In this document: positions 18,916 to 22,506 of the stretch, in pieces
How the letters are laid out: every line of letters starts with the position of its first letter
How positions within the stretch are numbered: the first letter of the stretch is position 1
Program-made: the position numbers and the translations under genes
Notes under the pieces: generated by a model
Told to the model about the DNA's origin: nothing
Database searches by the model: none
What the model saw: only the letters and a program-made list of their open reading frames with translations
NCBI GenBank assembly: GCA_016201275.1
Contig: JACQDB010000082.1
Span: 1 to 64,000, forward strand
Origin: Acidobacteriota bacterium
GTDB taxonomy: Bacteria; Acidobacteriota; Blastocatellia; UBA7656
Direction of reading: 5' to 3'
DNA: 64,000 nucleotides

Positions 18916-20787
18916 ATGAGCCATCAACTTTCATTTGAGGTCATCGTTATAGGCGCGGGACACGCTGGTTGCGAGGCCGCTTACATCGCGGCGCGCATGG
19001 GCGCAACGACCGCGCTCTGCACTCTTGATGTCAACTCCATAGGCATGATGAGTTGCAACCCGGCCATCGGCGGCATCGCCAAAGGCCATATGGTGCGTGA
19101 AGTGGATGCCCTAGGCGGCATTATGGGCGAAGTCATAGACGCCACCGGCATACAATTTCGCTTGCTCAATCGCAGCCGTGGCCCCGCCGTGCAATCGCCG
19201 CGCGCTCAGGCCGACCGCAATCTTTATCGCACCGAGATGCGCCGCCGTTTGGCGTTCACAGAAAATTTGACCATCATCGGCGGCGAAGTCGCTGAGATCA
19301 AAATCGGCAATGGCAAAGTTACAGGCGTTGAACTCGCTGACGGCACTTGCATCGCTGGGCGCGCCGTGGTCTTGACTACCGGTACGTTCTTGAATGGCTT
19401 GGTTCACGTTGGCAAAAAGACTTTTCAAGCCGGACGCAGCGGCGAACCGGCGTCTATCAAACTGGCAAACTGCATTCGCCGCATAGGCTTTAAGACCGGC
19501 AGATTGAAGACCGGAACGCCGCCGCGCCTCGACGGGCGAACCATTGATTACAGCCAATTCGAGCGTCAACCGGGCGACGAAAATCCGGTGCCGTTTTCGT
19601 TCAAGACCGCACGCATCAAGCGCCGCCAGATTGAATGTCACATCGGTTACACCACCGAAAAAGTTCACGACATTATTCGCAGGAACTTGGACAAATCCCC
19701 GCTCTACAGCGGCGACATTGAAGGCATAGGGCCGCGTTATTGTCCGTCCATCGAAGACAAAGTGGTGAAGTTCGCCGACAAAAATCGCCATCAGATTTTT
19801 CTCGAACCGGAAGGCTACGACACTTATGAAGTTTATCCGAACGGCATCTCTACGAGCATGGCCGAAGAGGTGCAGATGGATTTCGTGCGAGCGATTGCGG
19901 GACTGGAAAAGGTCAAGATGCTCAGACCCGGTTATGCCATCGAATACGATTTCGTGGACCCGCGAGAATTGTATGCGACATTGGAAACCAAAGCAGTCGG
20001 CAGCCTCTTTCATGCAGGGCAAATCAACGGCACCAGTGGTTACGAAGAAGCCGCAGGGCAAGGCCTCGTCGCCGGCATCAATGCGGCGTTGCAGGTGTCG
20101 GGGCGCGAAGGCGTAGTGTTGGATCGCGCCACCAGTTACATCGGCGTGATGATAGATGATCTGGTCACCAAAGGCGCAGACGAACCGTATCGAATGTTCA
20201 CTTCACGCGCCGAGATGCGCCTGTCTTTGCGTTACGACAATGCGGACCAACGCCTGTCGCCGCTCGGTTATGAAATCGGCGCGCTGCACGATAGCGATTA
20301 TCAGGCGTTTTTGCAGCGCCAGGAAGATGTGCAACGCGCCACAGACGTATTGATGAACGGGCGCGTCAACGACCTCCACGAAGCGTTTATCGAAGGCTTG
20401 GCATTGGAAGGTTCGCGGGAAACTTTGAATGGCAAAAAGCTCGAATACCTGGCGCGTCGTCCCGATTGCGACATCGAAAAATTGCTAGGCGTCATTCGCG
20501 CAGCGACCAACGGCGAGATTGCCGACAAAGAGATTGTCGTCGCCTTGAATGACACGCGCTATTCGGGGTACTTGAAGGATCAGGAATCCTTGGCAAAAAA
20601 ACGCGCCCGTTATGACCAGCTCGAAATTCCTCGCGCTATGGATTTCACAGAGATTGCCGGACTGTCTAGTGAAGTGGTACAGAAACTTTCGCGCATACGC
20701 CCGACGACTATCGGACAAGCGGCGCGCATCCCCGGCATGACGCCTGCGGCGGTTTCGATTCTGCTGGTCGCCATGTTGCGAAATTAA
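18916..20787 (+). CDS. mnmG: tRNA uridine-5-carboxymethylaminomethyl modification enzyme MnmG (GidA)
   Basis: A 623-residue FAD enzyme that, with MnmE, builds the cmnm5 group on wobble uridine of certain tRNAs. The FAD-binding start VIGAGHAGCEAAYIAARMG, the family block SCNPAIGGIAKGHMVREVDALGG and the GTFLNGLVHVG, TGTPPRLDGRTIDYS and PGYAIEYDFVDPRELYATLE blocks are all present. The C-terminal helical domain used for MnmE binding is full length. The two genes often found beside it (mnmE, rsmG) are absent; a Clp N-domain gene and an attC-like site follow instead. Confidence 0.97.
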   Translation: MSHQLSFEVIVIGAGHAGCEAAYIAARMGATTALCTLDVNSIGMMSCNPAIGGIAKGHMVREVDALGGIMGEVIDATGIQFRLLNRSRGPAVQSPRAQADRNLYRTEMRRRLAFTENLTIIGGEVAEIKIGNGKVTGVELADGTCIAGRAVVLTTGTFLNGLVHVGKKTFQAGRSGEPASIKLANCIRRIGFKTGRLKTGTPPRLDGRTIDYSQFERQPGDENPVPFSFKTARIKRRQIECHIGYTTEKVHDIIRRNLDKSPLYSGDIEGIGPRYCPSIEDKVVKFADKNRHQIFLEPEGYDTYEVYPNGISTSMAEEVQMDFVRAIAGLEKVKMLRPGYAIEYDFVDPRELYATLETKAVGSLFHAGQINGTSGYEEAAGQGLVAGINAALQVSGREGVVLDRATSYIGVMIDDLVTKGADEPYRMFTSRAEMRLSLRYDNADQRLSPLGYEIGALHDSDYQAFLQRQEDVQRATDVLMNGRVNDLHEAFIEGLALEGSRETLNGKKLEYLARRPDCDIEKLLGVIRAATNGEIADKEIVVALNDTRYSGYLKDQESLAKKRARYDQLEIPRAMDFTEIAGLSSEVVQKLSRIRPTTIGQAARIPGMTPAAVSILLVAMLRN

Positions 20788-20858
20788 TCGAAGCAGGTTT
20801 CCGCCTGACGCGACCTAATGCCCATTAGTCCGACGCCGACCAGTGTTGAAGGTAAGTC

Positions 20859-21278
20859 ATGGTTGATCTAGAAATCTTCTCTAACAAGCTTGATAAAGAT
20901 GCCACCCGCATAATGCACCTGTCATATAACAAGGCTCGCAGCCGAAACCATAATCAACTCAATCTCCATCACGTTACTCTGGCTTTCGCTGAACTCGAAC
21001 CAGATTTGTTCAACTATTTGCTACGGAGCCTCCATCTTGATCCTGTAGCAATTATCAAGGAAGCAGAGGCTAGACTTGTTCGGCAGAAGGGCAAAGGCGA
21101 AGAAATGGAGCTATCGAATAATCTAAGAACTCTATTAAAGAATGCATTAAAGAGAACACACGGAAGAGGTCGAAGATTGATTGAAGCAAGAGACCTATTA
21201 TTGGCACAATACAACCGCAAAGAAAGTAAGGTAAAAAAACTGCTCAATCGAATCGGTGTATTAAGGAAGGGCGCTTGA
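20859..21278 (+). CDS. Stand-alone Clp N-terminal (repeat) domain protein
   Basis: A 139-residue protein with two tandem Clp-N type repeats: about 5-60 (LDKDATRIMHLSYNKARSRN, then HHVTLAFAEL) and 80-120 (ELSNNLRTLLKNALKRTHGR, then EARDLLLAQY). In ClpA, ClpB and ClpC this domain receives substrates or adaptors; here there is no AAA+ ATPase part. It could act as an adaptor or decoy for a Clp unfoldase, by inference. Composition is AT-richer than mnmG just upstream. It ends 17 bp before an attC-like site, as in an integron gene cassette. Confidence 0.75.
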   Translation: MVDLEIFSNKLDKDATRIMHLSYNKARSRNHNQLNLHHVTLAFAELEPDLFNYLLRSLHLDPVAIIKEAEARLVRQKGKGEEMELSNNLRTLLKNALKRTHGRGRRLIEARDLLLAQYNRKESKVKKLLNRIGVLRKGA

Positions 21279-21295
21279 CCTTAACCGTTAGCGCG

Positions 21296-21387
21296 GCCTA
21301 ACAATCTCGTCAACCGGAGCGCACGAAGCGAGTTTCTTAACATTCCACCAGTGCCGCTCGCACGCCCAGTTACGCGGGGCGTTAGGC
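21296..21387 (+). other. attC-like integron recombination site
   Basis: A 92-bp site bounded by GCCTAAC (21296-21302) and GTTAGGC (21381-21387), exact inverse cores. The halves are imperfectly complementary (ctcgtcaaccggagcgcacgaag against the complement of ctcgcacgcccagttacgcgggg), as expected for the folded bottom strand of attC. The central part agtttcttaacattccacc is the loop. This is the clearer of the two sites in the window. It lies between the Clp N-domain gene and an acetyltransferase gene. Confidence 0.85.
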
Positions 21388-21413
21388 CATAATCGAAAAT
21401 ACTTTCTCGAGTC

Positions 21414-21869
21414 ATGAAAATTAAAGTTGATAATCTACAGCATCCGGCGATTCACGCACTGTTAAATGAGCATCTGCAAAATATGTATGAGCTTTCCCCG
21501 CCGGAAAGTGTTCATGCGCTCGACCTGGAAAAACTGCGCGCTCCGGGCATCACCTTCTGGACCGCTTGGGAGGACGAGATACTCTTGGGTTGCGGAGCGC
21601 TCAAGGAACTTGACCAAAAACACGGCGAGATAAAATCCATGCGTACTCCCAACGCGCAGCGGCGCAAGGGGGCGGGGCGCGCTATCCTTGCCCACATCAT
21701 CGAAGTGGCGAAGGCGCGAGGCTATGAACGCCTGAGCTTGGAGACTGGCGCGATGGAGGCCTTTCAACCCGCCCGAAAATTATATGAAAGCTTTGGCTTC
21801 ACCTACTGTGAGCGCTTTGGCGATTATCCAGATGATCCGAACAGCGTCTTTATGACCCTGCGGCTCTGA
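21414..21869 (+). CDS. GNAT-family N-acetyltransferase
   Basis: A 151-residue GNAT fold protein. The acetyl-CoA binding motif reads QRRKGAGRAILAHIIEVAKARG (about 81-102, the RxxGxG/A pattern), followed by LSLETGAMEAFQPARKLYESFGF, typical of the subgroup that includes YsnE-like proteins. The substrate is unknown. It starts 27 bp after the attC-like site, so it may be a second cassette, but no second attC follows it, and its composition resembles the chromosome. Its ribosome site is weak. Confidence 0.85.
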   Translation: MKIKVDNLQHPAIHALLNEHLQNMYELSPPESVHALDLEKLRAPGITFWTAWEDEILLGCGALKELDQKHGEIKSMRTPNAQRRKGAGRAILAHIIEVAKARGYERLSLETGAMEAFQPARKLYESFGFTYCERFGDYPDDPNSVFMTLRL

Positions 21870-22168
21870 ACCATCACGCGGCCTGTCAACAGGCTATACC
21901 AGAAGCTGCAAAGCAAACTTCTTATCGGTTATCTATTATCGGTTGCGGCTCATTTGAGCGTGCGCGTGAGCCGCTTTTGGCTATGATGCCATTTGCTCTA
22001 ATCAACCGCAGTTCTCTGGACGCTATCATTGCTTCCTCGATGAAGAGTCATTCCGACTCAGGATCAGCAATGAAATCCACGAAGATCATGACGCCAAAGA
22101 AGCGCTCAAGCACCTTTGTGGTTTTGGTGTGCTTCGTGATTGGTAAGCTGAATTAATTTTCAATCCTA

Positions 22169-22291
22169 GAGCGGTTTTCCTATGGGTGTACGGAACGCGC
22201 TATCGTTGAGCAGCGGTCTTCGACGGCGCGAAGGTCTTCGACCGCCGCTCAACGGCTTTGAGGTTTCCGTAATCTCAAACCAAAACCGCTC
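22169..22291. mobile_element. MITE-like palindromic element B
   Basis: A 123-bp element with terminal inverted repeats gagcggtttt / aaaaccgctc, flanked by TA on both sides (22167-22168, 22292-22293). The interior contains a nested hairpin (gttgagcagcggtc ... gaccgccgctcaac). No coding potential. It differs in sequence from MITE A but has the same TA-flanked, fully palindromic layout. Confidence 0.7.
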
Positions 22292-22407
22292 TAAGCGGCG
22301 CAGCCGCGAAAAAACAACACCAGCCTAACGGAGAGTCCTAGACTCTCCGCACATCAAAGCGGCACAGCCGCATCGCGCTCAACTCTCACAACCAAGCTGG
22401 GTAGTTA

Positions 22408-22506
22408 GAGAGAGTCGCAGAATTCCAGCAACCGCCCATATGTTGTAGATGCTTAAACTATCACACACAATATCTGGACAGAATATCGCATTTCTGCGAC
22501 ACGCTC
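22408..22506 (+). mobile_element. MITE family A, copy 2
   Basis: A 99-bp element, flanked by TA (22406-22407, 22507-22508), with ends gagagagtcgcagaa / ttctgcgacacgctc and the conserved interior cgcccatatgttgtagatg ... cacacaatatctggacag. Same orientation as copies 3 and 4. Confidence 0.88.

Follow-up and report, generated by a model that had tools for sequence, protein, structure and literature searches.

A Clp N-domain encoded on its own, with no ATPase domain attached, forms the only cargo of an integron gene cassette that lies between mnmG and a GNAT acetyltransferase gene in the window (the whole stretch of 64,000 nucleotides of Acidobacteriota DNA that was analysed). The single-gene cassette is close to certain, and chance is ruled out for both halves of the observation, the Clp-N reading frame and the attC site. 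The reading that best accounts for the locus as a whole is that an integron integrase (IntI) inserted the cassette, that the cargo came from a second Clp unfoldase, here called the C93-type Clp, and that its product sequesters ligands of that unfoldase, as a competitor or sponge. Taken together, this account is given a probability of roughly 50%. The features of the locus are collected in Table 1.

Table 1. Features of the cassette locus, in coordinates of the window.
Feature	Position	Strand	Description and basis
mnmG, chromosomal left neighbour	18916..20787	+	orthologues of 73-82% identity in six genomes of the same family
attI-like core GACCTAATGCCCATTAGTCC	20812..20831	+	motif match; putative crossover of the left edge between A20824 and T20825
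Inferred gene cassette, 557 bp	20825..21381	+	left core to G of R'
Shine-Dalgarno-like GAAGG	20848..20852	+	sequence; 6 nt upstream of ATG
Stand-alone Clp N-domain protein	20859..21278	+	ATG start, 139 aa, without ATPase domain, pI 10.3
attC	21295..21388	- (structured strand = bottom)	R'' 21296-21302, R' 21381-21387; stem pairing and covariance model
GNAT acetyltransferase, chromosomal right neighbour	21414..21869	+	orthologues 85% (G002) and 80% (G003)

When the 139-aa protein was compared with Pfam, neither PF02861 (Clp-N) nor any other family gave a match, so that routine annotation could call it hypothetical. Among NCBIfam models, the N-terminal part of ClpB was recovered at E 5e-6, with ClpA, ClpV and ClpG weaker, and phmmer with the protein alone reached ClpC and ClpA N-domains at E 0.005-0.015. 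By searching the PDB with a family profile, ClpC, ClpA and other Clp N-domains were obtained with a best E of 6e-18; the relatives fetched by this profile came from metagenome-assembled genomes of Blastocatellia and other Acidobacteriota. An AF2 model, for which the alignment of the window protein and its relatives served as input, folds into eight helices with a mean pLDDT of 83.8 and a pTM of 0.78, and the PDB matches listed for it by Foldseek are Clp/Hsp100 proteins, mostly N-domains, with E-values no better than 2e-6 and TM scores of roughly 0.65-0.75. No AAA+ domain is present in the 139-aa frame or adjoins it, the neighbours being mnmG and GNAT. The original prediction of a lone Clp-N fold without an ATPase is thus borne out, structure prediction of the 139-aa protein having returned precisely that fold.

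Furthermore, the GC content of the ORF is 42% (GC3 40%), as against 53% in the window and a GC3 of 60-64% in the neighbouring genes, a difference consistent with acquisition. A promoter search around the cassette gave nothing above chance, which makes read-through from mnmG, located 71 bp upstream on the same strand, the likely route by which the cassette gene would be expressed. The 139-aa protein had no match in an anti-phage library, and its AF2 model had no convincing match in a viral fold library.

The ORF has the usual orientation of a cassette gene, and its stop codon lies 17 bp before R''. The two R boxes (R'' GCCTAAC and R' GTTAGGC, fitting RYYYAAC/GTTRRRY) are complementary at 7/7 positions, with one more outer pair, and their combination is unique within the window. 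In the 6.84-Mb genome, the strict R-box pattern at this spacing is confined to the present site, compared with 15 occurrences of the reversed control; since R boxes alone are thus weak evidence, the inner stem was tested separately. This stem comprises 3 bp, a bulge, 6 bp, a bulge and 5 bp, paired at 14/14 positions, a geometry shared with the arrays of relatives, and shuffled versions of the inner sequence paired as well in 2 of 200,000 cases. On the bottom strand, the extrahelical bases are G (21311) and T (21318), and the central spacer is unpaired.

In addition, a covariance model was built from seven attC sites of relatives, with the window site left out. The reference sites were taken from arrays adjoining integron integrases of related genomes and were entered as arm-anchored sites with the loop removed and the 5' spacer equalised (for model building only), replacing an unusable MAFFT full-site alignment. 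Within the window, the attC is the sole match of this model (35.3 bits, E 1.7e-7, bottom strand), and in the whole genome it ranks fourth of seven matches at E 1.8e-5. Rfam gave no match over the locus. A chance hairpin, or a terminator beside an ordinary chromosomal gene, would suit a locus that has just one attC and a minimum-energy z-score that is modest when taken alone (-1.55), but such an origin is exceedingly remote in view of both covariance-model E-values, the shuffling result and the presence of IntI and sister attC sites in the same genome. Stem pairing and the covariance model argue that this is a genuine attC, and the claim that the ORF ends just short of an attC-like site beside mnmG is upheld by the same evidence together with the coordinates.

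An integron integrase is encoded in the same genome on a contig (C64) that differs from that of the window, where TIGR02249 scores 486.7 bits against a cut-off of 265; on the window contig, no integrase above the cut-off appears among the matches listed. The sequence upstream of the C64 IntI includes an attI-like core, GGCCGAATTTATGTTAGGC, and, some 300 bp beyond it, a GCCTAAC at the contig end; the edge of the array carries GTTAGGC and GCCTAAC cores. When the C64 contig was scanned for paired cores, no convincing attC was located next to IntI, the array being cut off where the contig stops. Further attC sites were located by the covariance model on C138, C46, C36 and C15 (two), with a weaker one on C121. 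A second lone cassette, bounded on either side by GTTAGGC, is found on contig C138, away from the integrase; together with the window cassette and the scattered attC sites, it marks isolated cassettes as a feature of this genome.

Several other observations were made on these sites. The cargo of the C138 cassette (L077 977-1495, C138:5488-6006) is a 172-aa coiled-coil-like protein with a weak, sub-threshold Pfam match to HVO_A0114 (8e-4). Apparently non-coding cassettes share sequence around CAGGAGCCAGTTTCACGGCGGCACTCGAAA between GTTAGGC and GCCTAAC (L048 1-320 on C64, L078 on C46, L081 on C15 and the end of L079 on C36). In L078, L079 and L083 (C46, C36 and C121), the R'' box of the attC is CATAGAAC and an IS110/IS1111-looking transposase gene is joined to GCCTAACAG; attC sites of this genome appear to serve as targets for insertion elements. 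A dispersed repeat of the form AGAGCGGTTT...TGTACGGAAC...GAGCAGCGGTCTTCGAC..., found at 22160-22440 of the window and also in L077 and L083, resembles a miniature mobile or REP-type element.

At the window locus, homology to relatives stops at the mnmG stop codon and resumes at the GNAT start codon, with none in between, and the chromosomal genes on both sides of the cassette have orthologues in other contexts. The GNAT gene was considered as the cargo of a second cassette and rejected, since orthologues of 85% and 80% identity in other contexts mark it as chromosomal. On the left side, the motif RCCKAATN5TTAG at 20813 has the content and spacing of the local attI-like cores. In the 483 kb searched, it occurs there and at four integron sites only (the genome's own IntI, the C138 lone cassette, the C15 array and the IntI of G002), and a stricter form is found six times in 6.84 Mb, with integron sites accounting for three. 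Since the motif was drawn up with the 20813 site already in view, and since the right half of the core reads ATTAGTC where local attI sites have GTTAGGC (two departures), the placement of the left cassette edge at this core is likely, though short of proven. Insertion of the cassette between mnmG and GNAT would be the work of an IntI of this genome, or of an ancestor, acting on an attI-like or secondary core site.

As a stand-alone gene, the cargo is a singleton among the relatives searched. A profile search of 39 related genomes returned 75 Clp-N regions, among which the only short frame (about 140 aa) is that of the window, all others being at least 661 aa long and belonging to full-length ATPases. 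Across 396 genomes of the phylum, the sole other short frame has 163 aa and a weak match (G402:C14:574834-575202; 28% identity, E 5.5e-6). It belongs to a more distant member of the class and is a possible second stand-alone case. No relative of the 139-aa protein was found in plasmid and phage collections, nor in genome and viral contigs scanned by short peptide patterns, a scan that reaches close relatives only. The original prediction had named homologues that are always chromosomal and devoid of attC as evidence against it; no such stand-alone homologue was encountered among the relatives.

The best homologue of the 139-aa protein is the N-domain (first 136 aa) of the C93 Clp ATPase of the same genome, with an alignment that starts at residue 1, 40% identity and E 2.4e-29. 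Orthologues of this ATPase in the same family and order are 38-42% identical to the protein, with 40-42% for the ATPases of its own genome and family, and those in the class about 25-35%, identity to Clp N-domains dropping with phylogenetic distance. In a tree, the stand-alone domain falls among same-order sequences (support 82/88) on a branch of 2.6 changes per column, a length that leaves its exact place unsure. These comparisons indicate that the domain very probably derives from the C93-type Clp family. The family (G000:C93:21339-23609; orthologues L064-L075) is Blastocatellia-wide, measures 753-756 aa, and has two Walker A motifs. With the ClpA, ClpB and ClpV models it falls short of the curated cut-offs, and it is assigned to none of these types. 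An invariant LGF of the C93-type Clp aligns with the IGF loop of ClpA, which is the ClpP-docking loop in known ClpA and ClpX proteins, and the C93-type Clp probably binds ClpP. The cassette protein would thus have its source in the N-domain of a second, probably ClpP-binding unfoldase. This unfoldase coexists with a true ClpA, and it is also present in G001 and G004, in which ClpS was not found; in the genome of the window, the bona fide ClpA is located at C144 and adjoins ClpS. A ClpA/ClpS-type N-domain was rejected as the origin because the C144 ClpA did not match the 139-aa protein at E 1e-3, which refines the earlier proposal as to the donor.

Eleven parental N-domains share 39 invariant positions, of which the 139-aa protein retains 25. 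The other 14 are altered and include losses or reversals of charge such as E25K, D30N, E37H, R81E and D120R. The net charge is +12, whereas the parents range from -2 to +3, and the C-terminal half alone carries +14. Given these altered invariants and this charge, parental ligands may no longer bind, and a plain copy-cat decoy is not assured. The frame is intact, beginning where the parent begins and stopping near the domain end, and together with the retained residues this favours some selection over a passenger fragment. A fragment of this kind, picked up from a clp gene and left to drift in a silent cassette without selected function, would be in keeping with the long branch, the singleton status among relatives and the lack of a promoter above chance. 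It is nevertheless considered improbable, as 139 codons have remained open behind their own start and Shine-Dalgarno sequence, 25 of 39 invariant positions are kept against an identity of 40% overall, and the predicted fold is well formed (AF2).

The high pI and the basic C-terminal half, set against parents that are about neutral, could also point to conversion of the domain into a regulator that binds DNA or RNA, and ClpC2 offers a precedent in that it represses its own promoter (PMC10030653). This conversion is regarded as quite unlikely: no known DNA-binding motif is present in the protein, the extra N-terminal dimerisation part of ClpC2 is absent here, and low-GC coding may favour lysine. 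Another possible role is that of an adaptor or accessory subunit, which would bind either to ClpP or to the ring of the C93-type Clp and deliver substrates or modulate the core in the manner of plant ClpT, whose members are Clp-N-like; the altered charge would be compatible with an adaptor that has acquired a new partner. The predicted Clp-N fold (AF2, Foldseek), the occurrence of a matching host unfoldase with a ClpP-type loop, and the association of ClpT proteins with the ClpP ring (PMC7966870) are in line with such a role. The 139 residues, however, contain no second binding domain and no defined peptide tail except a short, low-confidence basic end (AF2), and the adaptor role is accordingly held to be unlikely.

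The function tentatively preferred, by analogy with ClpC2, is that of a competitor or sponge for ligands of the C93-type unfoldase. A soluble N-domain without a motor would occupy ligands whose normal docking site is the N-domain of the hexamer, candidates being adaptors, tagged substrates and small-molecule or peptide inhibitors. A wider and rather doubtful proposal is that integrons mobilise the bare Clp-N as a decoy. By sequestering adaptors or natural products directed against Clp, for instance, such a decoy would shield or reprogram the host Clp protease, and adaptive cargo that acts on proteolysis would then form a new class among cassettes.

Beyond antibiotic resistance, the function of cassette cargo is mostly unknown. 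In the present case, the fold, the donor family and a candidate partner in the same genome are all clear, which yields a specific and testable hypothesis, namely that the protein competes with the N-domain of a ClpP-type unfoldase. If such competition holds, the ClpC2-type sponge idea would reach mobile DNA, and Clp proteases would be worth protecting or retuning in environmental bacteria. The locus also implies that the receptor domain of an unfoldase can be captured and mobilised alone.

Cassette insertion at attG or secondary sites was reportedly described by Loot et al. in 2024. The present locus is like such insertions in being a lone chromosomal cassette outside an array, and differs from them in its left junction, where the sequence is similar to the L box, N5 and TTAG of the local attI core and not to a random short site. 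Sites of the attC type have been modelled before in Acidobacteria (PMC8352920), and single-attC elements are recognised by IntegronFinder 2.0 as possible true positives (PMC9024848). Single-attC CALIN elements share with the window cassette one ORF, an attC with R and L boxes and two bottom-strand extrahelical bases, and a location away from intI (PMC9024848), whereas the cargo, here a Clp N-domain, sets it apart from CALIN and integron cassettes in general.

With respect to the protein, the C93-type Clp is homologous over its first 136 aa but is a full two-AAA ATPase with the LGF loop. Plant ClpT1 and ClpT2 are likewise auxiliary Clp proteins without an ATPase, yet they associate with the plastid ClpPR core and are confined to algae and plants (PMC7966870). 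Mycobacterial ClpC2, a sponge that protects against cyclomarin and regulates its own promoter, is also a partial Clp homologue with the Clp-N fold and without an ATPase, and it sponges a ligand of a Clp unfoldase (PMC10030653). In ClpC2, a dimerisation part is present at the N-terminus and the protein binds its own promoter, and a location on a cassette is not described for its gene. The 139-aa protein, which aligns with its parents from residue 1, is without this extra N-terminal part and is a bare N-domain of another Clp family. In a limited search, at the level of titles and abstracts, of the literature on integron cassettes and Clp proteases and on Acidobacteria integrons, no Clp-N cassette cargo was encountered. 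The novelty originally claimed therefore stands for the kind of cassette cargo and lapses for the kind of protein, an ATPase-less Clp-N sponge and regulator being already known in ClpC2 (PMC10030653). Altogether, attC cassettes, single-attC elements and ATPase-less Clp-N proteins are known already, and what appears to be new, within that limited literature search, is a bare Clp N-domain as cassette cargo.
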